Assembly: GCF_029953595.1 (NCBI RefSeq)
Contig: NZ_CP124535.1
Span: 2,202,001 to 2,266,000 of the forward strand
Reading direction: 5' to 3'
Source: Fuscovulum ytuae
Lineage (GTDB): Bacteria; Pseudomonadota; Alphaproteobacteria; Rhodobacterales; Rhodobacteraceae
Length of the DNA stretch: 64,000 nt
The notes beneath the pieces were generated by a model that worked only from the letters and a program-made list of their open reading frames with translations, was not told the origin of the DNA and ran no database searches. Shown here one piece after another: positions 37,178 through 57,589 of the stretch. The translations under genes were made by a program, and so were the position numbers. Each line of letters opens with the position of its first letter. Positions within the stretch are counted from its first letter, which is position 1.

Positions 37178-37254
37178 CGGAGCGTAGCGCAGTCTGGTAG
37201 CGCACCTGCTTCGGGAGCAGGGGGTCGGAGGTTCGAATCCTCTCGCTCCGACCA
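37178..37254 (+). tRNA. tRNA-Pro (anticodon CGG)
   Basis: A 77-nt cloverleaf: acceptor arm CGGAGCG/CGCTCCG with encoded ACCA, D arm GCGC...GCGC containing AGTCTGGTA, anticodon stem CCTGC/GCAGG with loop TTCGGGA (anticodon CGG), and T arm with GGTTCGAATCC. It reads the proline codon CCG. No integrase or direct-repeat attachment site is seen next to it. Confidence 0.95.
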
Positions 37255-37342: not shown

Positions 37343-37380
37343 ATAAAAAAGGTGCAGGCAGGCCATCGCCCCCCTGCACC
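37343..37380 (-). terminator. Terminator of the TRAP operon (minus strand)
   Basis: Arms GGTGCAGG (37351-37358) and CCTGCACC (37373-37380); on the minus strand the stem is followed by TTTTTTATT. It lies just past the dctP stop. Confidence 0.75.
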
Positions 37381-37401
37381 CCATCATCTACGCCAGCAGC
37401 C

Positions 37402-38463
37402 TTAGTTCAGGTCGCCCGCCCGTGCCGCGCTGACCGAGGCTTCCGCGCTCGTCACCGCCGCCGTGAAGGCGTCCAGAACCTCCGGCCCGCCCTTCACATT
37501 GGCTTTGAACCAGTCAAAAACCGGGTTCACAGCTGCCTTGAAGGCCGCCTTTTCCTCGGCGGTGGGCACATAGATCTCACCCCCTGCCGCGCGGAAATCG
37601 GCATAGGCCTGAATTTCCTTGCGCTTCGGGCTGGCAAAGGTCGCCTGTTGCAGCGCGGCAAAGCCATCCACAACGATCTGCTGCTGCTCCGGGGTCAGCG
37701 ACTTGAACCGATCATTCCCCATCCACCAGAAGGCGCCCATATAGCTGTGCCCGTCCAGCGTCAGGTATTTGATCCCCGCATCGGTGAACTTCATCGACAT
37801 GATGTCGGTGATCCCGTTCGCCGTACCTTCCACCACCCCGGTCTGAAGCGAGGTGAACAGTTCCGGCCACGGAATCGGCGTCGGCGATGCCCCAAGCGTG
37901 GTGGCCAACGTCTGCGGCAGGTCCGCAGGAACGGTGCGCATCTTCAGACCCGCCAGATCGCCCGGTGCCGCCACGCGACGCTGGGTGTTGGCATAGTTCC
38001 GCCAGCCGCCCGTATTGCCGATGGTCATCAGCCGGATCTTGTCGTCCGAATCCGCCAAGGCCATCGCCCGCAGCTTTGCCGTGAAATCGGTGCGCGTCAG
38101 CACCTCTTCGGCCACGCGGTCATCGCTCATCAGATAGGGCAGGTCCAGCACCTGAATATAGGGGAACAGCCCCGCCGCCCCGCCACTGGTCGAGATGTAG
38201 ATGTCGATCGTGCCATCCGCGACCCCGGCAAGGCATTCATCCCCCTTGGCGCACAGTTGGGTGCCCATGAAGATCTCCACCCCGATCGCGCCATTCGAGG
38301 CGTTCTCGACATAGTTCTTGAACACGACCAGACCGTCGTAATCCTCGTCCTGTTCGTTGGAATTGGCGGTGGCGCGCAGCATGATGTCCTGCGCCAGCGC
38401 GGCCCCGGCCGTTCCGGCCAAAAGCGCGGCAAGCGCCACGGACCGAAGGGTGTTCTTGAGCAT
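37402..38463 (-). CDS. dctP: TRAP transporter substrate-binding protein (DctP family)
   Basis: A 353-residue periplasmic solute receptor. The signal peptide is MLKNTLRSVALAALLAGTAGAALA. Family features include TLDGHSYMGAFWWMG, MRTVPADLPQTLATTLGASPTPIPWPELFTSLQTGVVEG (the Arg that clamps a carboxylate is in KMRTV) and NGITDIMSMKF. An unusual CAKGDEC pair could form a disulfide. The carboxylate-type clamp suggests an organic anion ligand. Last gene of the six-gene operon with dctQM and the monooxygenase genes. Confidence 0.9.
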   Translation of the reverse strand: MLKNTLRSVALAALLAGTAGAALAQDIMLRATANSNEQDEDYDGLVVFKNYVENASNGAIGVEIFMGTQLCAKGDECLAGVADGTIDIYISTSGGAAGLFPYIQVLDLPYLMSDDRVAEEVLTRTDFTAKLRAMALADSDDKIRLMTIGNTGGWRNYANTQRRVAAPGDLAGLKMRTVPADLPQTLATTLGASPTPIPWPELFTSLQTGVVEGTANGITDIMSMKFTDAGIKYLTLDGHSYMGAFWWMGNDRFKSLTPEQQQIVVDGFAALQQATFASPKRKEIQAYADFRAAGGEIYVPTAEEKAAFKAAVNPVFDWFKANVKGGPEVLDAFTAAVTSAEASVSAARAGDLN

Positions 38464-38493
38464 GGTTTCCTCCCTTTTTAACTCGTCTCAAGG

Positions 38494-39783
38494 TTAGTTC
38501 ACGAACCCGAAAAAGCGCGGGATCGTCAGGCAGATTGCGGGGAAGTAGGTGATCAGGAAGATCACCAGAACCTCCACCGCCAGAAATGGCAGGGTCGCTT
38601 TGGCAACGGTCTCGACCCTCAGCCCCGACACAACAGAGGTGACGAACAGCACAAGCCCCATCGGCGGCGTCAACAGGCCAACCGTCAGGTTGACCGCCAT
38701 GATGATGGCGAAATGCACGGAATCAACACCCAGTGCGGTGAAGATCGGCCCCAGGATCGGCCCGAGGATGATGATGGCGGGACCTGCGTCCAGAAACATC
38801 CCCACGATGAACAGCAGGATGTTGATCAGGAACAGCAGGATCAGCGGATTGTCCGACAGCGACAGGATGAAACCGGCAAGGATTTCCGGTGTATGGGCAA
38901 GCGCCGCAACCGTCTTGAAGGCCATCGCCGCCCCCACCAACAACAGCACAACGGCCGAGGTCAGGCCCGCCCGGATCAGAATGCCGGACAGGTCGGAAAG
39001 CTTTAGCGTCCGCAGCACGAACAGACCGATCAGAACGGAATAGCCCACCGCCACAGCCGCGGCCTCGGTCGGGGTGAAAATCCCGCCCAGAATGCCCCCC
39101 AGAATGATGACGGGCGTCAGTAACGGCCAAATGGCGTTCAGGCTGGCCTTGCCACGCGTTCCCCAACTGGCCTTCTGCGTCCGTGCAGGCAGGTCGTATC
39201 TGTCGGCCAAGAAATGGATGCACAGCATCAGACCGCCGCCGATGAGGATGCCCGGAACAATCCCCGCCAAGAACAGCGCGGCCACACTCTCGCCCATGAC
39301 ATAGGCGTAGATGATCATGATGCCCGAAGGCGGGATGATCGGCCCGATGATCGACGATGCGGCGGTGATCGCGGCGGCAAAGCGTCGGGTATAGCCCTGC
39401 CGTTCCATCGCGGGGATCAGCATCGACCCAAGCGCCGATACATCCGCCACCGCAGACCCCGACAGCCCCGCAAACAGCATCGAGGACAGCACATTCACAT
39501 GCGCCAACCCGCCGCGCAAATGGCCCATCATCGCCTGACTGAACTCGACCAGCCGAAGGGTGATGTTGGACCGGTTCATCACCTCGCCCGCGATCATGAA
39601 GAACGGGATCGCCATCAACGGAAAGCTGTCCATCCCGTTATAGACATTGCGGTACAAAAGGACGATGTCGCGCTCCTGCCCGTTCATCCACAGCAGCACC
39701 GCAGGCGCGAAGATCAGCCCGAAAAAGACCGGCAGGCCAATCAGCAACAGAACAAGGAAAAGCGGCAGGAACAGGCTCAGCAT
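38494..39783 (-). CDS. dctM: TRAP transporter large permease (DctM family)
   Basis: A 429-residue membrane protein with about 12-13 helices, using Na+ to drive uptake with DctQ and DctP. Typical signatures: LFAGLSGSAVADVSALGSMLIPAM, AASSIIGPIIPPSGIMIIYAYV, GGIFTPTEAAAVAV and GLLTPPMGLVLF. ATG at 39783 overlaps the dctQ stop by one base (TGATG). Confidence 0.93.
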   Translation of the reverse strand: MLSLFLPLFLVLLLIGLPVFFGLIFAPAVLLWMNGQERDIVLLYRNVYNGMDSFPLMAIPFFMIAGEVMNRSNITLRLVEFSQAMMGHLRGGLAHVNVLSSMLFAGLSGSAVADVSALGSMLIPAMERQGYTRRFAAAITAASSIIGPIIPPSGIMIIYAYVMGESVAALFLAGIVPGILIGGGLMLCIHFLADRYDLPARTQKASWGTRGKASLNAIWPLLTPVIILGGILGGIFTPTEAAAVAVGYSVLIGLFVLRTLKLSDLSGILIRAGLTSAVVLLLVGAAMAFKTVAALAHTPEILAGFILSLSDNPLILLFLINILLFIVGMFLDAGPAIIILGPILGPIFTALGVDSVHFAIIMAVNLTVGLLTPPMGLVLFVTSVVSGLRVETVAKATLPFLAVEVLVIFLITYFPAICLTIPRFFGFVN

Positions 39784-40388
39784 CACTCCGCCCCCAGACT
39801 GACCGCGTCGGCAATGGGCAGCAATGCGTCACCGCGGCCCGCCAAGGAAAGGATTTGCCGCAGCAAAAGCTCCAGATTGACAGCGATCAGCAGCCAGATG
39901 CCGACCAGCAAAGACGCCATCATCGTGGACTTCGGCAGCTTCATCCAAACATCGAAGCCAAGGCTGACCGGCACCCGCAGCGTATCCATTTCCGCCCGCC
40001 CGCCAAAGCCCGTCACCTCGGCCCAGCCAATCGCCGCCGCCTTCAAAAGAACCACCATCGCAACGCCCGTCAGGATCAACCCAAGCAAAGCGGCGATCCC
40101 CCGAGGCAGCAACCGTGACAGCATGTCGATGGAAACAAAGCCCCCCCTGCGATAGGCCGTCCCGATCATCAACCCCGTGGCCCACAGCATCAGAAACCGC
40201 GCCAACTCTTCTGGCCAAGGCAGCGCATTATCAAGGACATAGCGGAAGAAGACCTGCACCAGAATGGCAATGACCATCACGCCAAGGAAAGCAGCGCCCA
40301 GCCAGCGGCCAAGCGTCAACACAGCAGCGTTCAACCTGCTTAGGCCGTTGCAGATGGCCAATAATGCCGCCACGTCTCCTCCCCTCAT
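39783..40388 (-). CDS. dctQ: TRAP transporter small permease (DctQ family)
   Basis: About 201 residues with four membrane helices. The family's VQVFFRYVLDNALPWPEELARFLMLW segment is clear. The start could be ATG at 40388 or GTG at 40373, which has GGGGAGG a few bases before it. It begins 16 bp after the flavin reductase stop on the same strand. Confidence 0.87.
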   Translation of the reverse strand: MRGGDVAALLAICNGLSRLNAAVLTLGRWLGAAFLGVMVIAILVQVFFRYVLDNALPWPEELARFLMLWATGLMIGTAYRRGGFVSIDMLSRLLPRGIAALLGLILTGVAMVVLLKAAAIGWAEVTGFGGRAEMDTLRVPVSLGFDVWMKLPKSTMMASLLVGIWLLIAVNLELLLRQILSLAGRGDALLPIADAVSLGAE

Positions 40389-40404
40389 CCCCGCTTGCGC
40401 AGGG

Positions 40405-40914
40405 TCAACCGTCAAACCGTCCGAACCTGCCTTTCGCGAAAACCAGCGGCTCCCCCTCCTCAAGGGTCAATCGCAGGACCCTGCCCACGATGATCAGATG
40501 ATCCCCGCCTTCATGCGTGGCGTCCTGCGCGCATTCAAACCGCGCCAGCGTGCCGTCCAGAACCGGAACGCCCTCGGCATTCGCCCGCCAGTCCAGCCCG
40601 TCGAACCCCACGCCCTCGCGCCCGAACCGCGCCGGAAAGCCCGCCTGATCCTGCCCGAGCACATGGATCGCATAATGCCGCGCCCCGGCAAAGGCCGCAA
40701 ACCGCCGCGACGCCCGCGCCAGCGACCACAGCACCAAGGGCGGGTCCAGCGACAGGCTCGCAAAGCTGTTGGCGACAAACCCCATCGGCCCCGCCGGCCC
40801 CGCGACGGTGACCAGCGTCACCCCCGTGGCAAAACGGCCCAGCGCATCGCGGTACTGCCGCGCTTGCCCCGCATCCGGCACGATCGCCTCGCCCTGCATG
40901 CCGCCATCCGCCAT
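40405..40914 (-). CDS. Flavin reductase family protein (FMN reductase component)
   Basis: A 169-residue split-barrel flavin reductase (HpaC/RutF-like). Features are RDALGRFATGVTLVTV, GFVANSFASLSLDPPLVLWSLAR, FAGARHYAIHVLG and the terminal GDHLIIVGRVLRL. It should supply reduced FMN to the SsuD-like monooxygenase two genes upstream in the same operon. ATG at 40914 overlaps the aldo/keto reductase stop by one base. Confidence 0.88.
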   Translation of the reverse strand: MADGGMQGEAIVPDAGQARQYRDALGRFATGVTLVTVAGPAGPMGFVANSFASLSLDPPLVLWSLARASRRFAAFAGARHYAIHVLGQDQAGFPARFGREGVGFDGLDWRANAEGVPVLDGTLARFECAQDATHEGGDHLIIVGRVLRLTLEEGEPLVFAKGRFGRFDG

Positions 40915-41810
40915 CAGGCCACCTCATGCCCTTGCGCCAGCGTCAGCAGCTCGAACCACGTCTGGCGGTCCATCGGCACCCGCAACGCATCCGAAATCGC
41001 CGCAATCCGCGACAGGGTGTTGGTCCCCAGAACCGGAATGATCCGCGCCGGATGATGCAGCAGCCACGCCACCGCCACCGCCGTCCAATCCGTGCCCGCC
41101 TCGGCCCCAATCGCATCCAGCCGCGCGGCCAGCCCATCCCGCGCCTCGGCCCTCAGCCGCCCGCCGCCAAGCGGGCTCCACGCCATCGGCGCGATCCCCC
41201 GCTCTTGCAGAAAGGCCAGATCGCCATTGGTAAAGGCGTCCCGGCAGGTCAGCGACAACTCGATCTGGTTCGTCACCAAAGGGGTCGACATGGCCGATTG
41301 CAGCAGCCGCGTATCCCATGGGCGAAAGTTTGAAACCCCGACCGCCCGCACCTTGCCCCCTGCCACCAACGCATCCAGCGCGCGGCCCGTCTCGTGATGG
41401 TCCATCAATGGATCGGGGCGATGGATCAGCAACAGGTCAATCCGATCCGTCGCCATCTCGCGCAGGCTGGTTTCCACCGATGCGGTGATATGCGCCGCCG
41501 AGGTATCGTAATACTTCACCCGCGCCGCCGCATGCCGCCCAACCGGGGCCACGATATCGCATTTCGTCACGATCTCGATCCGGTCGCGCAATCCGGGGGC
41601 CGCCCGCAGCGCAGCCCCCAGCAAGGCCTCGGCAGCGTAGCCGCCATAGATATCGGCCTGATCCATCGTGGTGATGCCCTGCGCCAGACAGGCCTCCACC
41701 TTCGCCTGCACATGGGCGGCGCTTGTGTCGGCATCATCACCCAGCCGCCACATGCCATAGACCAGCCGCGACATCGTGATCGGTCCCAGCGTAACCCGCT
41801 CCATGCTCAT
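40914..41810 (-). CDS. Aldo/keto reductase (YdhF-like)
   Basis: A 298-residue NADPH-dependent (alpha/beta)8 enzyme. The catalytic tetrad residues appear in TTMDQADIYGGYAAE (Asp, Tyr), VTKCDI (Lys) and LLLIHRPDPLMD (His), followed by GKVRAVGVSNFRPWDTRLL and TNQIELS. The ATG at 41810 overlaps the monooxygenase stop (TGATG). It may reduce the aldehyde released by the monooxygenase; this is an inference from operon position. Confidence 0.87.
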   Translation of the reverse strand: MSMERVTLGPITMSRLVYGMWRLGDDADTSAAHVQAKVEACLAQGITTMDQADIYGGYAAEALLGAALRAAPGLRDRIEIVTKCDIVAPVGRHAAARVKYYDTSAAHITASVETSLREMATDRIDLLLIHRPDPLMDHHETGRALDALVAGGKVRAVGVSNFRPWDTRLLQSAMSTPLVTNQIELSLTCRDAFTNGDLAFLQERGIAPMAWSPLGGGRLRAEARDGLAARLDAIGAEAGTDWTAVAVAWLLHHPARIIPVLGTNTLSRIAAISDALRVPMDRQTWFELLTLAQGHEVA

Positions 41811-42967
41811 CACCGACGCACTCCATTTCCAAGGGGGGTTGCCGGGGTCGTTGCAGGCACCCTTCCATAGGCATGGGGCAGCGAACAGGTCTTCAACTCC
41901 GGCATCACCTTGGTCCCAAAATGATCGCATTCATCCAGATGCGGATAGCCCGAAAAAATGAAGGCCCGTATCCCCATGGCCCGATATTCCTCGATCTTCG
42001 AACAAACCTGATCGACCGATCCCACCAGCGCCGCGCCACAGCCCGACCGCGCGCGCCCGATCCCCGTCCACAGATGTGGCTCCACATAGCCGAACTGATC
42101 GGCCAATTCGCGCGCCCGCGCCTGATGCGCCACGCCAAGGCTGATGGAATCATGCGCCCGGTCGCGGATCAGCTTGCCATATTCGTCATCCAGCTTGGAC
42201 ACGATGTAATCGGCATAATCCCGTGCCTCGGCCTCGGTATCCCGCACGATCATATGCACCCGCAGCCCGTAATCCAGCGTCCGGCCATGCCGCTCGGCAT
42301 GCGCATGCACATCCTGCATCCGCTTGGCCAGCATCTCTTTCGTCTCCGGCCACATCAGATAGACGTCGCATTGCGCCCCGCACAGTTCCAACGCATCGGG
42401 CGAATAGCCCCCGAAATACAAAAGCGGCCCGCCATTCTGCTGATACGGCCGCGCCGGGTCCGACGTGATCTTGGAGATATGATAAATATCACCATGATAT
42501 TCGATATGGTCCTGCGTCCATGCCTGACGCAGAATCTCCACCACCTCATGGCTGCGACGATAGCGATAGGCGCTGTCGGCCACCTCGCCCGGAAAATCCG
42601 ACGAGATGACGTTCAACGTCAGCCGTCCCTGCAACATGTGATCCAGCGTCGCCACCGTCCGCGCCAGCATCACGGGCTGCATCTCGCCACAACGGATGGC
42701 CGCGAGGAAATTGATCCGCTCCGTGATCGGTGCACAGCCCGCCACGAAAGACAGCGTATCTTGCCCCACCTGATAAGAGGACGGGCACAGGATATTGCGG
42801 AACCCATGCCCCTCGGCCCGTTTCACGATGTCCGAACAATGCGCCCAGCTTGACCGCAGATCGCCATCCGGCACACCAAGGAACTGGTAATCATCCGAAC
42901 ACAGGGCCCCGAACCAGCTGACCTCACACGCATCCAGATCGGGCGAGGTGATCGGAACGACGGACAT
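41810..42967 (-). CDS. SsuD-like LLM-class FMNH2-dependent monooxygenase
   Basis: A 385-residue luciferase-like enzyme close in layout to alkanesulfonate monooxygenase SsuD: EVSWFGALC, CAPITERINFLAAIRCGEMQPV, ARTVATLDHMLQGRLTLNVI with SSDFPGE, a DHIEYHGDIYHI segment and GPLLYFGGYSPDALELCG. With the flavin reductase in the same operon it would form a two-component oxygenase cleaving a C-S or similar bond. The importer is TRAP, not SsuABC, so the natural substrate may differ from alkanesulfonates. First gene of the operon; an FNR-type box lies 48 bp upstream. Confidence 0.85.
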   Translation of the reverse strand: MSVVPITSPDLDACEVSWFGALCSDDYQFLGVPDGDLRSSWAHCSDIVKRAEGHGFRNILCPSSYQVGQDTLSFVAGCAPITERINFLAAIRCGEMQPVMLARTVATLDHMLQGRLTLNVISSDFPGEVADSAYRYRRSHEVVEILRQAWTQDHIEYHGDIYHISKITSDPARPYQQNGGPLLYFGGYSPDALELCGAQCDVYLMWPETKEMLAKRMQDVHAHAERHGRTLDYGLRVHMIVRDTEAEARDYADYIVSKLDDEYGKLIRDRAHDSISLGVAHQARARELADQFGYVEPHLWTGIGRARSGCGAALVGSVDQVCSKIEEYRAMGIRAFIFSGYPHLDECDHFGTKVMPELKTCSLPHAYGRVPATTPATPLGNGVRR

Positions 42968-43014
42968 GATTCTGTGACTCCGCTTTCGTGCTTTCCTCTT
43001 GCGTAGCATCCGCT

Positions 43015-43028
43015 TTGATGTAGATCAA
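43015..43028. promoter_or_regulatory. FNR/FnrL-type box TTGAT-N4-ATCAA
   Basis: TTGAT-GTAG-ATCAA matches the FNR consensus exactly. It lies between the divergent monooxygenase operon (48 bp from its start) and the GntR gene (28 bp from its start). Sequence to the right, ATCATGTATCAA, offers a further half-site. A GntR operator is the alternative reading. Confidence 0.6.
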
Positions 43029-43055
43029 TCATGTATCAATTCTGGATGCGACGTG

Positions 43056-43757
43056 ATGGCCCACCCCGGATCGCTGCCGCTTTATCAGCAGATCGCCGAA
43101 CTCCTGATCCGCGATATCGCCTCGGGCCGCCTGATCGACGGCGAAAGGCTTCCCCCCGAACGCGATATGGCGGCGTCTCTTGGCATCGCGGTTGGCACGC
43201 TCCGGCAAGCACTTAAATCCCTGACGGAAAAGGGGCTGCTGGAACGCGTGCAAGGATCGGGCAACTATATCCGCGCGCGGGCCGATGCGGCCTCGGTCTA
43301 TGCGCTCTTCCGGCTAGAGCGGATCGAAGGCGGCGGCCTTCCCACCGCCCGCGTCCTTTCCGTGGACCGCGTGCCGAAATCCCCTGCCCTGCCGCCCTTT
43401 GGCCGCCACGCCGAAGGTCACCGCATCCGCCGCCTCCGCTTCCTCTCCGGCACCGTCGCCGCGGTCGAGGAGATTTGGCTCGACGCCGCCGAGGTGGACC
43501 GCATCGCCCCGGCCGACCTGCTTGAATCCCTCTACCTCTTCTACCGTCAGCGTCTGGGCATCTGGATCGCCCGCGCCGAAGACAGCATCGGCCAAGGCCC
43601 CCTCCCCGATTGGGCCCCGCCCGACTTTCCCCATGCCCCCGGCACTCCGCTTCCCCTCATCACGCGGGTCAGCTGGGCGCAGGACGGCCGCTCGGTCGAA
43701 GCCTCGCTCACCTGGTACGACCCCGACACCATGCGCTATGTCGCGCGCCTCAGATAG
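43056..43757 (+). CDS. GntR-family regulator, HutC subfamily
   Basis: A 233-residue repressor. The N-terminal winged helix (PLYQQIAELLIRDIASGRL, ERDMAASLGIAVGTLRQALK, GLLERVQGSGNYIRA) is followed by a UTRA ligand domain (about 90-233, with RIRRLRFLSGTVAAVEEIWLDAAE). It probably controls the divergent monooxygenase-TRAP operon and the dehydrogenase gene 10 bp downstream. The inducer is unknown. Confidence 0.88.
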   Translation: MAHPGSLPLYQQIAELLIRDIASGRLIDGERLPPERDMAASLGIAVGTLRQALKSLTEKGLLERVQGSGNYIRARADAASVYALFRLERIEGGGLPTARVLSVDRVPKSPALPPFGRHAEGHRIRRLRFLSGTVAAVEEIWLDAAEVDRIAPADLLESLYLFYRQRLGIWIARAEDSIGQGPLPDWAPPDFPHAPGTPLPLITRVSWAQDGRSVEASLTWYDPDTMRYVARLR

Positions 43758-43767: not shown

Positions 43768-44874
43768 ATGCTGCGTTACGGGATCATCGGTTGCGGAATG
43801 ATGGGGCAGGAACACCTGCGCAACATCGCCCTTTTGGACGGGGCCTCCGTCGCCGCCATCTTCGAACCCGACCCTGACATGCGCGCCGCCGCCGCCACGC
43901 TCGTGCCAGACGCGCAAATGGTGGGCAGCGTGGCCGAGGTTCTGGCCAACCCGGAGGTGAACGCCCTTCTGATCGCCAGCCCCAACCATATGCATTTGGG
44001 CCAGCTGGAACAGATTGCCGCCATCCGCCCCCTGCCAATCCTCTGCGAAAAGCCGCTTTTCACCGATCCCGCCGATGCGCCGCGCCTTGCGCGCCTGCGC
44101 GCAGCCTATCCCGCGCCGATCTGGGTGGCGATGGAATACCGCTACATGCCCCCCGTCGCCCACTTCCTGCAACAGGCCGCCGCCGCCACCGGGGGCGTCC
44201 GCATGCTGACGATCCGCGAACACCGCTTCCCCTTCCTGCGCAAGGTGGGCGACTGGAACCGCTTCAACCGCAATTCCGGCGGCACGCTGGTCGAAAAATG
44301 CTGCCACTTCTTCGATCTGATGCGCCTTGTCGCAGGCTGCAATCCGGTCCGCGTCATGGCCAGCGGCGGGCAGGCCGTCAACCATCTGGACGAGGTCTAT
44401 GATGGCCAGCGCTCCGACATCTGGGATCATGCCTATGTCATCGTCGACTTCGCCTCCGGGCTGCGCGCGATGCTCGAACTCTGCATGTTCGCCGAAGGCA
44501 GCCGCTATCAGGAAGAGATTTCCGCCACCGGCCCCATGGGCAAGATCGAATGCCTCGTCCCCGGCCCCGGCCGTTTCTGGCCCGCCCATCTGGGCGCGGC
44601 CCCGGTGCCCAAAGTCATCCTCAGCCCGCGCCAGCCCGCCGGTCCGGTGGAACTGGATATCCCTGTCGATCCAGCCCTCCTTGCCGCAGGGGATCACAAC
44701 GGTTCCACCTTCTACCAACATCGCGGCTTTCAACGCATGGTCGCCGGCGAACAGACCGCCGAGGTGGGGTTCGAAGATGGCTGGTGGGCTGCGGCCATCG
44801 GCATGGCCGCCCAGCAAAGCGCGATGACGGGCGAAGCCGTCCATCTGGATCGCGCGCCCTTCACCCCCGCCTGA
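43768..44874 (+). CDS. Gfo/Idh/MocA-family dehydrogenase
   Basis: A 368-residue NAD(P)-dependent oxidoreductase with the cofactor motif GIIGCGMMGQEHLRNI, SPNHMHLGQLEQ, CEKPLFTDPAD (catalytic Lys in EKP) and GGTLVEKCCHFFDLMRLVAG. The C-terminal beta sheet domain is complete. It is transcribed with the GntR gene. The substrate (a sugar or polyol-type compound) is not known; it may process part of the compound imported by the adjacent TRAP system. Confidence 0.87.
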   Translation: MLRYGIIGCGMMGQEHLRNIALLDGASVAAIFEPDPDMRAAAATLVPDAQMVGSVAEVLANPEVNALLIASPNHMHLGQLEQIAAIRPLPILCEKPLFTDPADAPRLARLRAAYPAPIWVAMEYRYMPPVAHFLQQAAAATGGVRMLTIREHRFPFLRKVGDWNRFNRNSGGTLVEKCCHFFDLMRLVAGCNPVRVMASGGQAVNHLDEVYDGQRSDIWDHAYVIVDFASGLRAMLELCMFAEGSRYQEEISATGPMGKIECLVPGPGRFWPAHLGAAPVPKVILSPRQPAGPVELDIPVDPALLAAGDHNGSTFYQHRGFQRMVAGEQTAEVGFEDGWWAAAIGMAAQQSAMTGEAVHLDRAPFTPA

Positions 44875-44950: not shown

Positions 44951-45022
44951 CCGGCCTTTGCCGGGGCGTCACACCGCCCTGTTATGCGGAACCCCGTCAT
45001 CCACCATGAACGGGATACCGCC

Positions 45023-45904
45023 ATGACGTCCTTCCTCGCCAAGACCCTGATCGCGCCGGGCCTGATCGCCGCAAGCATTCTTGCCGCCACCCCGACCGTC
45101 GCCGCCGAAACCATCCGCTTCGCCTTCACCGATATCGACGGGATGGAAGCGGTCCAGCGCGAAATGGGCCCCTTCAAAGAGGCGTTCGAAGCAGCCTCCG
45201 GCCTCACGGTCGAGTTCTTCCCCGTCTCCGGCCGCACTGTCGCGGTCGAGGCGATGGCTGCGGGTCAGGTCGACTTCGTCCTCACCGGCCCCGCCGAATA
45301 TGTGGTCTTCAACGCCCGCCTCGACGCCCAGCCCGTCGTGACCTGGGTCCGCCCGGATTACTGGTCCTCCGTCGTCGTCCTCGATGGCTCGGCCATCCAG
45401 ACGCCCGATGATCTGAAGGGCGCCAAGATATCCTTCGGCGAGATCGGCTCCACGTCCCAGCATCTTGGCCCCGTCACCCTGCTCTCTGATGCGGGCCTGA
45501 CCTATGCCACCGACTATGAACCCGTCTTCCTGAACCGCAATGTCGCGGTCGAGGCGATGATCAAAGGCGAAATCGCCGCCATCGGCATGAACCGCACCCA
45601 TATCGACTCGGTCACGTCCAAGTTCCCGGATCAGAAGTTCCGCATCCTCGTGAAGGGCGAACAGCTTCCCGATGATGTGCTGCTCGCCTCGCCCGATGTC
45701 GCGCCTGAAGTCGTGGAAACCGTCCGCAAGACCTTTGCCGAAAAGGGTGCCGACATGCTCGCCGCCGTCACCGCGACGGAAGAGAACGCCAAATACATCG
45801 GCGGCTCCTTCAACGCGACGGTCACGGATGCCGATTACGATGTGGTCCGCCTGATGTATCAGAACGTCGGCGTCACCGAATTCGCCGAATTCGTCGGCCA
45901 GTGA
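45023..45904 (+). CDS. phnD: Phosphonate-type ABC transporter substrate-binding protein (PhnD-like, cluster A)
   Basis: A 293-residue periplasmic receptor. The signal peptide is MTSFLAKTLIAPGLIAASILAATPTVAA. The PhnD/SsuA-like core shows FPVSGRTVAVEAMAAGQVDF, TGPAEYVVFNARL, SFGEIGSTSQHLGPVTLL and the helix FAEKGADMLAAV. It is more diverged from E. coli PhnD than the cluster B copy, so the ligand may be phosphite, phosphate ester or another phosphonate. ATG at 45023; first gene of a six-gene unit. Confidence 0.82.
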   Translation: MTSFLAKTLIAPGLIAASILAATPTVAAETIRFAFTDIDGMEAVQREMGPFKEAFEAASGLTVEFFPVSGRTVAVEAMAAGQVDFVLTGPAEYVVFNARLDAQPVVTWVRPDYWSSVVVLDGSAIQTPDDLKGAKISFGEIGSTSQHLGPVTLLSDAGLTYATDYEPVFLNRNVAVEAMIKGEIAAIGMNRTHIDSVTSKFPDQKFRILVKGEQLPDDVLLASPDVAPEVVETVRKTFAEKGADMLAAVTATEENAKYIGGSFNATVTDADYDVVRLMYQNVGVTEFAEFVGQ

Positions 45905-45926
45905 TCGGCACAGGACACACGGGCCG

Positions 45927-46733
45927 ATGAACGCACCCCTCCTTCCGGCCCGCACGGCCACCGGCTCCACAGAAGTGGGGCCGGTTCTTCGCGTCTCCGG
46001 CCTGACCAAGGCCTATGCCGATGGCCGCCCCATCCTTCAGGGCCTCGATTTCGCGCTGGCCCCCGGCCAATCCACCGCCCTGATCGGGGCCAATGGATCG
46101 GGCAAATCCACCCTTCTGAAATGCCTCATCCGCCTGACCGAACCCAGCCAAGGCCGGATCGAGATGCTGGGCCAGGACATCCGCGCCCTGTCCCCCGCCG
46201 CCTTGCGCCGCTTTCGCGCCCAAGTGGGCATCGTCTGGCAAAAGCACAACCTCGTGCCGCGCCTTTCGGCGCTGTCGAACGTGATCCACGGCGTGCAATC
46301 CCGCCTGTCCGGCCCCCGCGCATGGTTCCAATCCCTCGCCCCCGCCGATGTGCGCGCCGAGGCGATGGCCTGCCTCGCCCGCGTAGGCCTTGCCGACCGC
46401 GCCTCTGCCCGCGTCGACAGCCTCTCCGGTGGCCAGCAGCAACGCATCGCCATCGCGCGCATGCTGATGCAGCGCCCCGCCTTCATCCTTGCCGATGAAC
46501 CTGATGCCAGCCTCGACCCCCAGACGGGGGAAGAGGTGATGTCCCTCCTCCTCAACCTCGTGCGCGCCGACGGCCTGTCGCTTCTGGTGATCTCGCACCG
46601 CCTTGAACACACCTTGGCCTTCTCCGACCGCATCCTTGGCCTGCAAGCGGGGCGCATCGCGCTCGATCTGCCCACGGCCCGGGCCGATGCCGAAGGCCTG
46701 CGCCGCTTCTTCGATCACGGGGATCACGCATGA
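45927..46733 (+). CDS. phnC: Phosphonate-type ABC transporter ATP-binding protein (PhnC-like, cluster A)
   Basis: A 268-residue ATPase. Walker [16 protein letters not shown]-loop VWQKHNLVP, signature [15 protein letters not shown], Walker B FILADEPDASLDPQ and the H-loop ISHRLEH are all intact. ATG at 45927; its end overlaps the permease start by ATGA. Energises the importer with the adjacent PhnE. Confidence 0.9.
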   Translation: MNAPLLPARTATGSTEVGPVLRVSGLTKAYADGRPILQGLDFALAPGQSTALIGANGSGKSTLLKCLIRLTEPSQGRIEMLGQDIRALSPAALRRFRAQVGIVWQKHNLVPRLSALSNVIHGVQSRLSGPRAWFQSLAPADVRAEAMACLARVGLADRASARVDSLSGGQQQRIAIARMLMQRPAFILADEPDASLDPQTGEEVMSLLLNLVRADGLSLLVISHRLEHTLAFSDRILGLQAGRIALDLPTARADAEGLRRFFDHGDHA

Positions 46734-47527
46734 CCGCCCTTCCCGCCCCGCCCCGTTTCCAACACCGTAGCCTTGCCGAATATCTGGGCCTCCTTCTGGT
46801 GCTGGCGCTGGTGCTGTCCTCCCTCGCCGCCACCGCCCCCTCGGCGCAGGCCTTGGGCAATGGCATCGCCCGCCTTTTCGCACCCTCGGGCCTTCTGATG
46901 CAGATGTTCCCGCCCGATTTCACGCGCATCGTGCCGATCGGATGGAAACTGCTCGAAACGCTGCAAATGGCGGTCGCGGGCTGTGCGCTGGGCCTTCTCT
47001 TCGCCATCCCCTTCGCCATCCTCGCCACCGATCGCCTCTCGCCCCACCCCGTGGTGCGCTTCGTCGCGCGCTCCCTCATCGCGCTTTTCCGCACGGTGCC
47101 CGATCTCGTCTGGGCCATCGTCTTCATCATCATCGTGGGGCTGGGGCCTGCGGCAGGCGTCATGGCGATCATGATCGACAAGATCGGCTTCGCAGGCCGC
47201 TTCTTCGCCGAAGCGATGGAGGAAACCGACCCCGGCCCACAAGACGCGCTCCGCGCCATCGGCGCCTCGCGCATGGGGATCATCGTCTCTTCCGTCTTTC
47301 CCGCCTGCCTGCCCTCCTTCACCGCCACCTCGCTCTTCGCGCTGGAAAAGGCCGTGCGTGGATCGGCAGCACTCGGCCTTGTCGGCGCAGGCGGCATCGG
47401 GGTCGACCTCAAGGTGGCCTTCGACCTTTTCAACTACGACGAAGCCCTCGCGATCATCCTCCTCCTTTTGGCCCTCGTGATCGCAGTCGAACAGGGCTCC
47501 GGCTGGATTCGCAGGAAATTGATATGA
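46730..47527 (+). CDS. phnE: Phosphonate-type ABC permease (PhnE-like, cluster A)
   Basis: A 265-residue permease with about six helices. The EAA loop region is visible in EETDPGPQDALRAIGASRMGI, with SAALGLVGAGGIGVDLKVAF after it, as in PhnE. Only one permease gene is present here, so it should form a homodimer. It overlaps both neighbours by 4 nt. Confidence 0.9.
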   Translation: MTALPAPPRFQHRSLAEYLGLLLVLALVLSSLAATAPSAQALGNGIARLFAPSGLLMQMFPPDFTRIVPIGWKLLETLQMAVAGCALGLLFAIPFAILATDRLSPHPVVRFVARSLIALFRTVPDLVWAIVFIIIVGLGPAAGVMAIMIDKIGFAGRFFAEAMEETDPGPQDALRAIGASRMGIIVSSVFPACLPSFTATSLFALEKAVRGSAALGLVGAGGIGVDLKVAFDLFNYDEALAIILLLLALVIAVEQGSGWIRRKLI

Positions 47528-48192
47528 ACGACATGACCACCGACACCGCCCATCTCTACTGGAACCGCGAATGGCAAAAGGCCGACGGCACCTCGCCTTG
47601 GGCGCAGGCCGAACCTTGGGTCACCGAACACGCCGCCTCCCTGCCCCCCGGCTCCCGCATCCTCGACCTTGGTGCCGGAATCGGCCGCCATGCGCTGGCC
47701 TTTGCCCGCGCCGGCCACCACGTCACCGCGCTTGACGCGGCCGAGGCCGCCACCGCCGCCATCGCCGCCGCCGCCTTCGCCGAAGGCCTGACCATCGCCA
47801 CCCATCACGGGCCGATGACCGACCTGCCCTTCCCAGACGCCACCTTCGACCACGTCCTCGCCTGGAATGTCATCTACCACGGCGACGAAACCATCGTCCG
47901 CCGCACCATGGCCGAAGTCGCCCGCGTCACCCGCCCCGGCGGCAGTTTCATGGCCACCATGCTGTCGGCCCGCCGCCTGCCCGTCGAACAAGCCAAGGCC
48001 AAGGGGCGCGAGATCAGCCGCAACACATGGGTCTTCGAAGGCCCCGGCGACAAGGTCCACCCCCATTACTTCTGCACCGCCCCCGAACTCCTGTCCCTCC
48101 TCTGGGGCTTCGAAGTGGTCACCCTCTTCGACCGGCCCCATGAAAAGCCCGGCTCGTGGCACTGGCACCTTCTTGCGGAACGCCTGAAATGA
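47524..48192 (+). CDS. Class I SAM-dependent methyltransferase in the phosphonate-type cluster A
   Basis: A 222-residue cytosolic methyltransferase. SAM-binding motif I is RILDLGAGIGRHALAFARAGHHVTALD, motif II/III DATFDHVLAWNVIYHG and post-III RPGGSFMAT. Two WHW-like and His-rich stretches near the end (GSWHWHLLAERLK, HPHYFCTAPEL) are notable. It is locked by ATGA overlaps between a phosphonate-type permease and a PhnM-like hydrolase. The acceptor is unknown; it could methylate an imported or released organophosphorus compound. Confidence 0.85.
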   Translation: MNDMTTDTAHLYWNREWQKADGTSPWAQAEPWVTEHAASLPPGSRILDLGAGIGRHALAFARAGHHVTALDAAEAATAAIAAAAFAEGLTIATHHGPMTDLPFPDATFDHVLAWNVIYHGDETIVRRTMAEVARVTRPGGSFMATMLSARRLPVEQAKAKGREISRNTWVFEGPGDKVHPHYFCTAPELLSLLWGFEVVTLFDRPHEKPGSWHWHLLAERLK

Positions 48193-49430
48193 CCGCCGAA
48201 TATATCGAAGGCGCAAGCCTCCTTCTCGATGACCGCATCGTCACCGGCTCCGTCCGCATCGAAGATGGCCGGATCACCGGCATCGACGTCGCCCGCGATG
48301 GCGCGACGGTGATCAAGGCCCGCGGCCTCCTCCTCGCCCCTGCCTTTGTCGATATCCACGGCGATGCTTTCGAACGGCAGGTCATGCCCCGCCCCGGCGT
48401 CGCCGTCCCGATCCCTGCGGCGCTTCTGGAAACCGACCGCCAACTTGCGGCCAACGGCATCGCGACCGCCTACCACGCCCTCACCCTCTCATGGGAACCG
48501 GGCCTGCGCTCCGTCGATACAGGCTGGCGCATCGTCCGCGCACTCGAAGACCTGCGCTCCCGCCTCACCGCCGACAACCGCATCCAACTGCGCTGGGAAA
48601 CCTTCTGCCCCGAGGCGGAACCCCTCATCGCCCATGTCCTGCAAGGCGCAGACCGCCCCGCGCTCGCCTTCAACGATCATACGACAAGCGCCCTCCTCCA
48701 CCCTTCCATCCCCATCCACGACCGCCCCTTCGACCATGTCCCCGATTATCCGGTGACCGATCTCGCCAGCCCTGCCTTCGCCGCGAAACTCTCCGACCGC
48801 GCGAAACGCGCCCATATGTCACCCGCCGAATTCGTGGACCTCATCACTCGCATCTGGTCCCGCCGCCCGGCCGTCCCGGCCGATATCAACCGCATCGCCG
48901 CCATGGCCCGCCGCGCGGGCGTGCCCATGCTCTCGCATGACGACACGCAGGTCGAAACCCGCGACCATTACCGCGCCTTGGGTGCGCGCGTGGCCGAATT
49001 CCCGATGCATGACCGCGTCTTCCACGCCGCCCGCGCCGCAGGCGATGCCATCGTCCTTGGCGCCCCAAACGCCATGCGCGGCGGCAGCCACTTGGGCAGC
49101 CCCAGCGCGGCCGAGATGATCGCCCGTGGTCTCTGCGACATCCTCGCTTCCGATTACTACTATCCCGCCATGCTGGGCGCGATGGTCCGGCTGCATGCCG
49201 ACAACATCGCCCCCCTCCCCGCCCTCTGGCAACTGGTCGCCGCCAATCCCGCCCTTGCCATGGGCCTGACCGACAGGGGCCGCATCGCGCCGGGCCTGCG
49301 CGCCGACCTTCTCCTGATCGACTGGCCCGAAGGCGGCCCCCCCGCCCCCTTGCGTACTTGGGTCGCGGGCCGCGCGGGCTATTCCGCCCTGCCAACCGCC
49401 CGCCAACCGCATCCCGAACCCGCCGTCTAG
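48189..49430 (+). CDS. PhnM-like amidohydrolase, 'HGDxFERQ' type (cluster A)
   Basis: A 413-residue amidohydrolase resembling PhnM, which hydrolyses alpha-ribosyl-1-methylphosphonate 5-triphosphate to the 5-phosphate. Metal-binding features: AFVDIHGDAFERQ with His57 and Asp59, LAFNDHTT, LSHDDTQVETRDHY, GAPNAMRGGSHLG, SDYYYP. E. coli PhnM has HTDNLDK where this protein has HGDAFERQ, so this is a distinct subgroup. A sister gene is at 55542-56726 and canonical phnM starts at 63952. Overlaps the methyltransferase by ATGA. Confidence 0.82.
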   Translation: MTAEYIEGASLLLDDRIVTGSVRIEDGRITGIDVARDGATVIKARGLLLAPAFVDIHGDAFERQVMPRPGVAVPIPAALLETDRQLAANGIATAYHALTLSWEPGLRSVDTGWRIVRALEDLRSRLTADNRIQLRWETFCPEAEPLIAHVLQGADRPALAFNDHTTSALLHPSIPIHDRPFDHVPDYPVTDLASPAFAAKLSDRAKRAHMSPAEFVDLITRIWSRRPAVPADINRIAAMARRAGVPMLSHDDTQVETRDHYRALGARVAEFPMHDRVFHAARAAGDAIVLGAPNAMRGGSHLGSPSAAEMIARGLCDILASDYYYPAMLGAMVRLHADNIAPLPALWQLVAANPALAMGLTDRGRIAPGLRADLLLIDWPEGGPPAPLRTWVAGRAGYSALPTARQPHPEPAV

Positions 49431-49456
49431 ACCCCCGCTCAAGGAAAGGCCCGGCC

Positions 49457-50359
49457 ATGTATACCGACTTCCTGCCCGAAGACGCCCCCGCCCCGCAGAC
49501 CGTCGCCTTTACCTATTCCCATCCCGACCAGCCGCTTCTGCGCCGCACGCTGATCCGCGCCTTCGAACGCGCCACGGGCCGCGCCCGCCTGCAACGGCTC
49601 TATGCCGATTGGGCCGCGCATGGCAAACGCCCCGGTGAATCGGTGTTCGAGGCCGCGCTCCGCCTCCTCGACATCCGCCCCCGCATCGCAGGGGCCGAAA
49701 ACCTTGACGCCCTCCCGCGCGAAGGCGGGCTGCTCCTCATCGCCAACCATCCCTTCGGCATCGTTGACGGCCTCGCCTTGGGCCGTCTGGGGATGGAGTT
49801 GCGCGGCAATGTCCATATCCTGACCAACAGCCTCCTCTGCCGCGTGCCCGAGGTGGACCCCCACCTTCTTCCCGTCGATTTCGCAGGCACGCCCGAAGCC
49901 CGCCGCCTCACCAGCGAAACCCGCCGCCGCGCCACGGCGCTTCTCGCGGCGGGCAAGGTCGTGGCGATTTTCCCCGCAGGCGGCATCGCCACGGCGAACC
50001 GCCCCGTAAAGGGACATGCCGTCGACAGCTCATGGCACCCCTTCGTCGGCCGCCTCGCCACCCAACCCGGCGTCACCACCCTGCCCTTGCATTTCCCCGG
50101 GCAGAATTCGCGCCTCTTCCAGATCGCCAGCCATTCCAGCTATGCGCTGCGCGTCGCGCTGATCTTCTTTGAAACCCGCCGCCGGATGGGCCGCCCCGTC
50201 GATGTTCGTGTGGGCAACCCCATCACAGCCGAGGAACTCGCCCCCCTCGACCGCAGCGCCATCGCCGCCACGCTGCGTCAGCGCACCATGGCCCTCGCAG
50301 GCTCCGCGCTCCCCGACCCGGATGAGGTCTTCCACTGGCCCGCCCATATCCGCTGGTAG
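49457..50359 (+). CDS. PlsC-type acyltransferase (lysophospholipid acyltransferase family)
   Basis: A 300-residue acyltransferase. The catalytic HX4D motif is ANHPFGIVDGLALG, followed by FPAGGIATA (Glu replaced by Ala at the usual FPEG position) and an H-rich LPLHFPGQNS segment. It may acylate a lysolipid or an ornithine-lipid precursor. The gene follows the PhnM-like gene after 26 bp and ends cluster A, so it may be induced with it in phosphate starvation. Membrane association is likely from the family. Confidence 0.8.
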   Translation: MYTDFLPEDAPAPQTVAFTYSHPDQPLLRRTLIRAFERATGRARLQRLYADWAAHGKRPGESVFEAALRLLDIRPRIAGAENLDALPREGGLLLIANHPFGIVDGLALGRLGMELRGNVHILTNSLLCRVPEVDPHLLPVDFAGTPEARRLTSETRRRATALLAAGKVVAIFPAGGIATANRPVKGHAVDSSWHPFVGRLATQPGVTTLPLHFPGQNSRLFQIASHSSYALRVALIFFETRRRMGRPVDVRVGNPITAEELAPLDRSAIAATLRQRTMALAGSALPDPDEVFHWPAHIRW

Positions 50360-50655
50360 GCCGCCCCCGGCGCCACCCGATCCCGCGCGCAATAGGGCCG
50401 CAGCATCAGACCGATCCTGCGGTCCAAGGGCTTTCACCCTGCCCCCCATTCACCTTGGTCCAAATACTCACCTCCCTCGCGCCACGGTCCAGATCGGTCG
50501 CAAAGCCGTAGGATGGGCCATCCGGCCCATCCCCCGACAGTCTCGACCACAGCCATCCCGCTTCCGCTGCGCGTTCCCGCCCCAAGTAGACCCAAGGTCA
50601 CCGCGCACCACATCCGCGCCACCATCCCGAACAGCCCTGCCCCCCGATTCGACCC

Positions 50656-50669
50656 TTAACGCGCGTTAA
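50656..50669. promoter_or_regulatory. TTAACGCGCGTTAA palindrome
   Basis: A perfect 14-bp palindrome followed at once by CCTTAACG. TTAAC-rich pairs of this kind resemble CtrA-type half-sites in alphaproteobacteria, but the spacing (TTAA-N6-TTAA) is one base off the N7 consensus. Confidence 0.35.
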
Positions 50670-50708
50670 CCTTAACGATCCGGAACCCCGGCGCGCGTGG
50701 CCACAGAA

Positions 50709-50741
50709 TGCTGCACAGAACCCGGCACAAAACAGGGCACA
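50709..50741. repeat. Dispersed 33-bp repeat, copy 2
   Basis: TGCTGCACAGAACCCGGCAC then AAAACAGGGCACA; the copy at 12312-12344 differs at two positions. Confidence 0.6.
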
Positions 50742-50795
50742 AAGGATTTCGCCCCCCGCGCCCCGTAAACCCAGCGCCCGCATGGCTTTTCCGCT

Positions 50796-50835
50796 CTGTT
50801 GGAAAACTTTCATGAAACTGCAGCCATTCCGTCAC
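50796..50835 (+). promoter_or_regulatory. PHO-box-like array upstream of cluster B phnC
   Basis: Half-sites at 11-bp spacing: CTGTTGG (50796), CTTTCAT (50807), CTGCAGC (50818) and CCGTCAC (50829), close to the PhoB consensus CTGTCAT repeats. It ends 46 bp before the phnC start and so should cover the promoter. Confidence 0.65.
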
Positions 50836-50881
50836 CTCACCCCGCTATCCCCGCCCCAACCAGCGACAAGGGGACTGACAG

Positions 50882-51706
50882 ATGCTGCTCGAAGCCCGCC
50901 AGGTGACCCGCCTCTTCGGCCAGAAGGCCGCCGTCGACCATGTCAGTTTCCGCGTCGAGAAACCCGCCTTCATCGGCATCATCGGGCGGTCCGGCGCGGG
51001 GAAATCCACCTTCCTCCGGATGATGAACCGCCTGACCGACGCCACCTCCGGAGAGCTTCTTTTCGAAGGCCGCAACATCCTGTCCTTGCAGGGAAAATCC
51101 ATGCGCGACTGGCAGGGCCAATGCGCGATGATCTTCCAACAGTTCAACCTCGTCCCGCGCGCCGATGTCGTTTCGAACGTCCTGCATGGCACGCTGGCAC
51201 GGCGGGGCACGCTTTCCACCATGTTCGGCTTCTGGCCCGATGACGACACGCTGAAAGCGCTCGCCATCCTCGACCGCCTCGGCATCGCCGAACAGGCCGC
51301 CAAACGGGCCGAGGCCCTGTCCGGCGGTCAGCAGCAGCGCGTCGCCATCGCCCGCGCCCTGATGCAGGATCCGAAAATTATCCTTGCAGATGAACCCATT
51401 GCCAGCCTCGACCCGATGAATGCCCAGCTGGTGATGGACACCCTCCGCCGCATCCACGACGAAGACCGTCGTCTCATCATCGCCAACCTCCACACCCTCG
51501 ACACCGCCCGCCGCTACTGCGACCGGGTGATCGGCATGCGTGACGGCCGCGTGGTTTTCGACGGCACCCCCGACCAACTCACCACCGGCGTCGCGCGCGA
51601 CATCTACGGCGCGGATGCAAGCTTCAACGAATCCGCCACCTCGACCTCGATCGACGGGCTCGGGCGCAAGGGCGACGACGCCTATGCCCTTGCAATGCTG
51701 AACTGA
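50882..51706 (+). CDS. phnC: Phosphonate ABC transporter ATP-binding protein PhnC
   Basis: A 274-residue ATPase of the phosphonate importer. Walker [18 protein letters not shown]-loop [11 protein letters not shown], signature [15 protein letters not shown], Walker [13 protein letters not shown], and H-loop NLHTLD are complete. The [16 protein letters not shown] insert is typical of PhnC. ATG at 50882. First gene of cluster B, behind a PHO-box-like array. A GCCCCG/CGGGGC hairpin lies between it and phnD. Confidence 0.95.
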
Positions 51707-51752
51707 TTTCCAACCGCCCCGGGTTTCGGGGCTTCCTCAACGGAGTGTTCCG

Positions 51753-52649: not shown

Positions 52650-52665
52650 TCCTTCCCACCGCAAA

Positions 52666-52700
52666 ACCGGGCTGCCCATCGGGCGGCCCGGTCCTTTTTT
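52666..52700 (+). terminator. Intercistronic terminator/attenuator between phnD and phnE1
   Basis: Arms ACCGGGC (52666-52672) and GCCCGGT (52686-52692) with additional inner pairing, followed by CCTTTTTT. Because it lies within an operon, partial termination would lower permease expression relative to the receptor. Confidence 0.75.
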
Positions 52701-52709
52701 GGGGGTCTC

Positions 52710-53588: not shown

Positions 53589-53591
53589 CCC

Positions 53592-55540: not shown

Positions 55541-55541
55541 T

Positions 55542-56726: not shown

Positions 56727-56790
56727 GGGGAACACCTTCGGGTTGCAATTGGCTGTGGATAACCTCGGCCTGCAACGGCGGTGTGACAGG

Positions 56791-57501: not shown

Positions 57502-57510
57502 CCACCCCTC

Positions 57511-57539
57511 CTGTTACACAAGTTTCACCAAAGCGTCGT
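57511..57539 (+). promoter_or_regulatory. PHO-box-like array between phnF and phnG
   Basis: Half-sites CTGTTAC (57511), GTTTCAC (57522) and GCGTCGT (57533) at exact 11-bp spacing. The same spacing is seen ahead of both ABC clusters. About 50 bp before phnG. Confidence 0.55.
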
Positions 57540-57569
57540 GGTGCCGACTCTTTGGTTGATGTATGTAAT

Positions 57570-57585: not shown

Positions 57586-57589
57586 GATC

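Follow-up and report, generated by a model that had tools for sequence, protein, structure and literature searches.

The 64,000-nucleotide stretch of the Fuscovulum ytuae genome analysed here (the window) very probably carries a sulfo-SMO-type catabolic unit for sulfoquinovose (SQ) in which a TRAP transporter stands where a sugar ABC importer is usual. The most probable substrates of the unit are SQ, a sugar that carries sulfur and occurs in the membranes of plants and algae, and its glycoside SQ-glycerol (SQGro). A preliminary description of the region, which our results support in part, had proposed a carboxylated or otherwise anionic sulfonate; an anionic sulfonate is indeed likely, but we find no reason for a carboxylate. 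We also consider it likely that the transporter represents a well-conserved TRAP subfamily dedicated to SQ and its glycerol glycoside, serving two unrelated pathways and forming the commonest identified importer near sulfo-SMO genes in the family (36 of 59 loci).

The unit consists of six minus-strand genes (37402-42967), all lying where they had been placed before. These are smoC (41810-42967), encoding a 385-residue FMNH2-dependent SQ monooxygenase of the LLM/bacterial luciferase family; smoB (40914-41810), encoding an aldo/keto reductase (AKR) acting from 6-dehydroglucose to glucose; smoA (40405-40914), encoding a flavin reductase for FMNH2 supply; and dctQ (39783-40388), dctM (38494-39786) and dctP (37402-38463), encoding the small permease, large permease and periplasmic solute-binding protein of the TRAP system. 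The start of dctQ was set at an ATG downstream of the TTG that opens the longest ORF. Three of the five junctions overlap (by 1, 1 and 4 bases), and gaps of 16 and 30 bases separate smoA from dctQ and dctM from dctP. Opposite smoC lies a divergent plus-strand pair that had gone unmentioned: gntR (43056-43757), encoding a GntR/UTRA regulator (PF00392, 64 bits; PF07702, 79 bits), and sqgA (43768-44874), encoding a GH188 NAD+-dependent sulfoquinovosidase (SQase). The six-gene order is intact in 34 of 36 TRAP-bearing SmoC loci, and the arrangement is therefore beyond chance; gntR and sqgA are divergent in 33 of these 34 loci, the last being cut by a contig end. Other bearers of the unit include Ruegeria sp. 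TM1040, whose DctP is WP_011536972.1. The link between TRAP and sulfo-SMO genes is thus real, and the view that oxygenase, aldehyde-reducing partner and TRAP transporter form one conserved unit is borne out by the comparison of gene order that had been suggested for it.

The terminator assigned to the unit is also real: a G+C-rich hairpin about 20 bases past the dctP stop runs into six U (37345-37382, minus strand). The 96-nt region folds at -42.6 kcal/mol (z -3.1), with 1 of 200 shuffles equally good. A simple consensus scan reported just a 5-pair version of this hairpin, and its nine terminator-like sites in the region compare with 8.3 expected by chance. At the other end, a conserved promoter/operator element upstream of smoC (42998-43041, minus strand), common to gntR, reads AATTGATACA-N2-ATTGATCTACATCAA ... 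TGCTACGCAAG. Of 64 upstream regions, 44 contain an exact ATTGATACA and 29 an exact GCTACGCAAG, whereas mononucleotide shuffles gave means of 0.02 and 0.01, respectively. Judging from gene context, the GntR/UTRA protein is the probable regulator of both arms.

On sequence evidence, the monooxygenase is the SmoC of the sulfo-SMO pathway rather than a generic SsuD. The closest relatives of known structure, 7olf and 7oh2 (746 and 740 bits in a PDB search, ungapped over 384 residues), carry entry titles that name monooxygenases for the oxidative desulfurization of sulfoquinovose. A generic alkanesulfonate or methanesulfonate monooxygenase (SsuD or MsuD) serving sulfur scavenging would share the same superfamily, and SsuD and MsuD do come next in the match list, but at 197-201 bits (197 for SsuD proper); moreover, SmoC does not reach the cut-off of the SsuD equivalog TIGR03565 (242.5 versus 518.2 bits), and 60 of 61 SmoC genomes also have SqgA, which together make this reading exceedingly improbable. 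The earlier label of an SsuD-like oxygenase therefore holds for the superfamily, but not for the enzyme. No SsuA_fam protein, the SsuA-type binding protein, scored above cut-off in the F. ytuae genome, and the fitting comparison is not SsuABC, as had been supposed, but the sugar ABC importer that accompanies the pathway in Agrobacterium. Residues W206, R236, H238, Y341 and H343, which we take to form the SQ pocket, are present in SmoC and invariant in 14 orthologues; the SmoC structure model was poor (pLDDT 58.1) and served only for finding PDB entry titles. SmoB matched 7bbz/7bby, presumably SmoB itself, at 474 bits (next AKR, 220 bits), and its D50, Y55, K83 and H130 fit the AKR tetrad motif and are assumed to be that tetrad. 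SmoA was assigned from PF01613 (117.5 bits) and its conserved position as third gene. The features of a sulfo-SMO system found here are thus SmoC, SmoB and SmoA encoded beside it, and a sulfoquinovosidase; the enzymes are of an already known kind, and strong orthology supports their putative identities.

The adjoining sulfoquinovosidase gene names the substrate of the unit. SqgA matched the solved SqgA enzymes 8qc2 and 8qc3 (378 and 375 bits) and 8zn9 (528 bits). The alignment retains K107, Y136, R166, L170, K172, E189, H193 and H321 (ArSqgA numbering), with the sulfonate triad R166, L170 and K172 among them; this active-site count covers the eight mappable residues, the ninth, Glu163, falling off the shared numbering offset. 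The predicted activity is NAD+-dependent hydrolysis of SQGro. Because GH31 (PF01055) had zero matches across the F. ytuae genome, SqgA is its sole known SQase candidate. By eye, the N-terminus opens straight on a Rossmann strand with no signal peptide; an NAD+-dependent enzyme of this kind implies that the glycoside must enter the cell intact. GH188 variants are treated in the accessible text of PMC11465081. The PhnCDE-like ABC set and methyltransferase that follow sqgA (44984-48192) were rejected as members of the SQ unit for want of conservation: the binding protein or methyltransferase had a match in 0 of 67 loci (L101 repeating L092), and only in L085 were there weak matches to the ATPase (39%) and the permease (34%), at a distance of a few kb. 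The region beyond this set is phosphonate/C-P lyase.

DctP (PF03480, 179 bits), DctQ (PF04290, 72 bits) and DctM (PF06808, 387 bits) all exceed Pfam cut-offs, and DctM also exceeds that of TIGR00786 (422 bits). R176 of DctP aligns with an Arg conserved among other DctP proteins, which we take to be the clamp, and is invariant over 41 orthologues, as are W154, R155, N216, D220, W246, C71 and C77. The DctP model (mean pLDDT 79.4; residues 203-238 weak, below 50) has the TRAP solute-binding fold, with Z up to 31.6 and identity of at most 25% among the 50 matches listed. Binders of sugar acids, ectoine and isethionate all score within 1.5 Z of the best match; with so many TRAP binding proteins nearly tied, structure was set aside as a route to the ligand, since it singles out no substrate. 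Within 30001-55000 of the window, no sugar ABC system of the type seen at locus L104 was found, and the TRAP genes occupy its place. Gene context points to SQ or SQGro as the cargo.

Across 149 family genomes, SmoC was present in 61, SqgA in 74 and a DctP orthologue in 54. DctP and SqgA occurred together in 52, DctP without SqgA in 2, SqgA without DctP in 22 and neither in 73 (p 7e-20); the corresponding counts for the 88 SmoC-less genomes were 13 with both, 1 and 1 with each alone, and 73 with neither (p 1.6e-13), both p values coming from Fisher tests that ignore phylogeny. The oxygenase genes are conserved with DctP in genome co-occurrence as well as in gene order. Beside SmoC in 59 fetched loci we found DctM and DctP in 36 and a sugar ABC in 5, never both; in the remaining 18 the stretch examined contained no TRAP genes and no ABC of the tested type, and in two of these cases (G133 and G102) the genome carries DctQMP on another contig. 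Because these 18 loci lack both importers in that stretch and a DctP orthologue is missing from 21 of the 61 SmoC genomes, TRAP is not obligatory for SmoC. A Marinovum sugar-ABC binding protein was dropped as a SmoF candidate, a PDB search at 1e-10 giving two distant sugar binders only. Among the best 80 named DctP loci, SmoC lay nearby in 58 and sulfo-EMP-like genes in 9, while in 9 the stretch examined was devoid of SQ genes; in seven of the latter the upstream contig end is no more than about 3.2 kb from DctP, the exceptions being L176 and L191.

These distributions bear on whether the transporter might import free SQ only, with SQGro entering or being cleaved by another route. Such an arrangement would suit a Qingshengfaniella locus (L092, repeated as plasmid record L101) that carries SmoC and DctQMP without SqgA, SmoB or SmoA. 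It is improbable, however, given that DctP accompanies SqgA in 52 of 54 genomes, SmoC-less ones included, and that an NAD+-dependent SqgA with no visible signal peptide requires cytoplasmic glycoside.

DctQMP also adjoins sulfo-EMP-like genes in 9 of the 14 SmoC-less DctP genomes, and two further ones have such genes on a different contig; the label denotes BLAST matches to single representatives from L118, L109 and L106. The L118 kinase has sulfofructose kinase 7ag6 as its best solved match, the L109 isomerase relative scores 266 bits against the NCBIfam 'sulfoquinovose isomerase' model, under the cut-off of 700, with no PDB match at 1e-40, and the L106 aldolase is LacD-type. The sets vary: L113 is without an aldolase, and L142 is without SqgA and a detected DctQ. 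On a DctP tree with weak support at 28 of its 65 inner branches, the two partner types require at least 6 changes, 2 of them forced by strongly supported branches. Partner labels are clustered (6 changes versus 12.9 in shuffles), and pathway swapping is therefore not frequent. Loci L110, L117, L120 and L122 (SmoB/SmoA, no SmoC in the stretch) were counted as SMO and L108, with sulfo-EMP-like genes on another contig of its genome, as EMP; L119, L141, L111 and L121 were left unlabelled, and L101 and L129 excluded.

That one transporter is common to two unrelated SQ pathways argues for the sugar or its glycoside as the cargo. This sharing, the six-gene order kept at 34 of 36 TRAP loci and the fact that sulfo-SMO yields no C2/C3 sulfonate make it very unlikely that TRAP is merely a frequent neighbour importing another organic acid such as a C4-dicarboxylate, sulfolactate or isethionate, even though such acids are the best-known cargo of TRAP families, DctP retains the conserved Arg176 and the isethionate-binding IseP is among its near-tied structural matches.

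In the pathway that we propose for SQ and SQGro, periplasmic DctP would catch SQGro and/or free SQ, for DctQM to import by means of an ion gradient, the general driving force of TRAP transporters. In the cytoplasm, SqgA would then split SQGro into SQ and glycerol; SmoC would use FMNH2 produced by SmoA to oxidise SQ, yielding sulfite and 6-dehydroglucose, and the latter would be reduced to glucose by SmoB. The F. ytuae genome has no member of the sulfite/sulfate exporter family PF03601; it encodes seven TauE-like proteins. SQ production is put at about 10 billion tons per year in the accessible text of PMC10755693. If correct, our reading describes a TRAP importer for a sulfonate-bearing sugar glycoside rather than for a simple acid, and predicts that these bacteria import the abundant glycoside beyond the scarce free sugar. 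The DctP subfamily, which tracks the SQase over two pathways, would serve as a metagenome marker for the import of SQ or SQ glycosides and as a directly testable candidate importer.

The Agrobacterium sulfo-SMO pathway, with SmoABC, SmoI and SmoEFGH, was reportedly described by Sharma in 2022. Its sugar ABC importer is the Agrobacterium form and lies outside the enzyme definition of sulfo-SMO. The F. ytuae unit shares SmoC, SmoB and SmoA, with glucose and sulfite as products, but has TRAP DctPQM in place of the ABC importer, GH188 SqgA in place of a GH31 SQase, and, unlike Agrobacterium, a divergent GntR/UTRA regulator. Liu reportedly described GH188-bearing sulfo-SMO clusters of the Roseobacter clade in 2023, and these resemble the present one in pairing SmoC with this SQase. 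Accessible text summarises the Agrobacterium pathway (PMC12890257, section 2.2; PMC9594981) and gives SmoC plus GH188 SQase as near-universal in Roseobacter-clade clusters (Kaur 2023, PMC10755693). The accessible main text of PMC10755693 names no importer for those clusters, whereas TRAP genes are traced here and, unlike in the accessible Roseobacter-clade accounts, also occur with sulfo-EMP-like genes. By title and abstract we found no TRAP importer assigned to SQ, although primary papers, figures or supplements may mention one, and no paper citing the PDB codes had this subject by title; the accessible SQ literature speaks of ABC importers. The solved TRAP binding proteins IseP (isethionate; 8t9t/8te9) and DctPAm (sugar acids; 7bbr) share the solute-binding fold of DctP (Z 29-31) at 20-22% identity, whereas the cargo here would be a sulfosugar or its glycoside.

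The unit runs from position 42967 down to 37402 of the window on the minus strand and comprises genes for a luciferase-like monooxygenase (smoC), an aldo/keto reductase (AKR; smoB), a flavin reductase (smoA) and the TRAP components DctQ, DctM and DctP. The smoC/smoB and smoB/smoA pairs each share 1 base and dctQ/dctM overlap by 4 bases, so these pairs look translationally coupled; gaps of 16 and 30 bases separate smoA from dctQ and dctM from dctP. About 20 bases 3' of dctP, a hairpin precedes a run of six U. The six-gene, terminator-closed unit of the preliminary description is confirmed; that description omitted two divergent plus-strand genes opposite smoC, one at 43056-43757 for a GntR/UTRA regulator and one, sqgA, at 43768-44874 for a Gfo/Idh/MocA-type protein. 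A tRNA-Pro (cgg) gene lies immediately past the terminator (37178-37254, plus strand).

Over 384 residues, SmoC gave gap-free alignments to 7olf (746 bits) and 7oh2 (740 bits), entries whose titles refer to oxidative desulfurization of sulfoquinovose (SQ), versus 197-201 bits for SsuD and MsuD. It also fell below the SsuD equivalog cut-off in a profile search. SmoB matched 7bbz/7bby, which we take to be SmoB, at 474 bits, compared to 220 bits for the next AKR. Residues W206, R236, H238, Y341 and H343, presumably the SmoC substrate pocket, are present at those numbers and invariant across 14 orthologues. SqgA scored 378 and 375 bits against the solved GH188 enzymes 8qc2 and 8qc3, and 528 bits against 8zn9; no GH31 (PF01055) match was found in its own genome. 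SqgA keeps all of eight residues that Kaur et al. (PMC10755693) position around bound SQ and NAD+; for a ninth, Glu163, the same numbering offset gave no position.

Following excerpts of two published accounts (PMC12890257, PMC10755693), SqgA with NAD+ would convert SQ-glycerol (SQGro) to SQ, the flavin reductase would provide FMNH2 to SmoC, SmoC would yield sulfite and 6-dehydroglucose, and SmoB would convert the latter to glucose. SqgA is NAD+-dependent and, judged by eye, has no signal peptide, so its glycoside substrate must enter the cytoplasm intact. Because DctPQM is the importer conserved in the unit, its cargo is likely SQ/SQGro. DctP has an unremarkable predicted fold, which picks out no single ligand. 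No study that credits SQ uptake to a TRAP importer came up in a search of titles and abstracts, a scope outside which the primary sulfo-SMO (SQ monooxygenase) papers fell; excerpts of a 2025 sulfofucose paper name ABC transporters for SQ uptake (PMC12421959).

Across 149 family genomes (148 genera), SmoC was present in 61, SqgA in 74 and a DctP orthologue (E 1e-90; one per genome) in 54. DctP and SmoC occurred together in 40 genomes, DctP only in 14, SmoC only in 21 and neither in 74; the corresponding counts for DctP and SqgA were 52, 2, 22 and 73, and, among the 88 SmoC-less genomes, 13, 1, 1 and 73 (Fisher p-values for co-occurrence ignore phylogeny). Of the 60 SmoC genomes besides that of F. 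ytuae, 59 had their SmoC surroundings compared: 36 contain DctM and DctP, five a sugar ABC transporter of the Marinovum type, none both and 18 neither, some of these last being truncated by contig ends. DctQMP lies on another contig in two of the 18 (G133, G102) and in the 60th SmoC genome (G147), behind SmoB and SmoA in G133 and G147. The six-gene order is kept in 34 of the 36 TRAP loci, 33 of which also have the divergent gntR and sqgA. Eight of 23 matched plasmid records were examined, and seven carry the TRAP unit (Rhizobium, Roseicitreum, Ruegeria, Paracoccus, Salipiger, Roseivivax and, partially, Qingshengfaniella, the same locus as L092 of the genome set); the eighth is the Marinovum ABC case (L104). 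Two ABC-type sulfo-SMO clusters (L104:12566-14579 and L055) carry additional genes between smoA and those for the sugar ABC, one esterase-like and the other a second dehydrogenase-like gene.

The 14 DctP-bearing, SmoC-less genomes, which yielded no SmoC even at E 1e-20, served as a control from another pathway. Nine of them hold DctQMP, SqgA and genes resembling a second SQ pathway (sulfo-EMP-like) in one stretch: a PfkB kinase (the one tested had sulfofructose kinase 7ag6 as its best solved match), an SQ isomerase relative under its family cut-off and a LacD-type aldolase (8/9 stretches). Some stretches also contain an aldehyde dehydrogenase, a mutarotase and a DeoR regulator. In G014 and G126, SqgA and the sulfo-EMP-like genes are on another contig, and in G126 DctQMP itself follows SmoB and SmoA. 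The last three genomes have SqgA, GntR, SmoB and SmoA (G040), SmoA only (G048), or SqgA and GntR (G143). Loci L110 and L117 retain SmoB, SmoA and DctQMP in genomes where SmoC is absent at E 1e-20; L119 and L222 (the latter titled uncultured Pelagibacteraceae bacterium) have SqgA and DctQMP with no Smo or sulfo-EMP-like enzyme in the stretch. A quick tree built from 68 DctP proteins has 28 weak branches among its 65 inner ones; on it, the two partner types require at least six changes, two of which strongly supported branches make unavoidable. The labels nonetheless cluster (12.9 changes in shuffles; 0/500 as low).

Class-wide, the DctP orthologue was found in 12 of 385 genomes. Nine of these places were examined, one (L129) being a 3.2-kb contig: four had sulfo-EMP-like genes, three SmoC, and two neither in the stretch. 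A named collection contained at least 582 DctP relatives at E 1e-3. Among the best 80 of these (67-94% identity), 58 lie by SmoC, nine by sulfo-EMP-like genes, four by SmoB, SmoA or SqgA alone or SmoA plus SmoB, and nine by none. There is species overlap among these samples, which are not independent. Both SQ pathway types repeatedly show a large MauG-like di-haem protein (PF03150; L118:7690-9501) behind dctP (19 of 36 TRAP loci; 37 of the 80 best named loci), and none was found in positions 30001-55000 of the window. A PhyH-family oxygenase (~230 aa) recurs near dctP (L108, L113, L116, L061, L067, L079). Positions 44984-62640 of the window, behind sqgA, form a phosphonate region: a PhnD-like binding protein accompanied by an ABC ATPase and a permease, a methyltransferase and a PhnM-like protein, followed by an ABC ATPase, PhnD, PhnE, and PhnG, PhnH, PhnK and PhnL; across relatives' loci it showed no conservation with the SQ unit.

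The region upstream of smoC contains a strikingly conserved element, AATTGATACA-N2-ATTGATCTAC plus TGCTACGCAAG. Exact ATTGATACA occurs in 44 and GCTACGCAAG in 29 of 64 upstream regions (one duplicate record removed), with shuffles, which preserve base content only and leave relatedness uncontrolled, near zero; we infer that the element combines a promoter with a GntR operator. TTGAT-N4-ATCAA, a type of motif that we take to resemble an FNR box, is present in 28 of the 64 and, if functional, could place an oxygen-dependent pathway under oxygen control. In the window, TTGATCTACATCAA (43015-43041) is FNR-box-like.

Together, the results indicate that these enzymes belong to a known pathway and that the unit is a real, widely conserved variant. 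Of greatest interest is its TRAP subfamily, a likely and readily testable SQ/SQGro importer. Compared to the prototype sulfo-SMO cluster, the F. ytuae unit differs in its importer and its sulfoquinovosidase.
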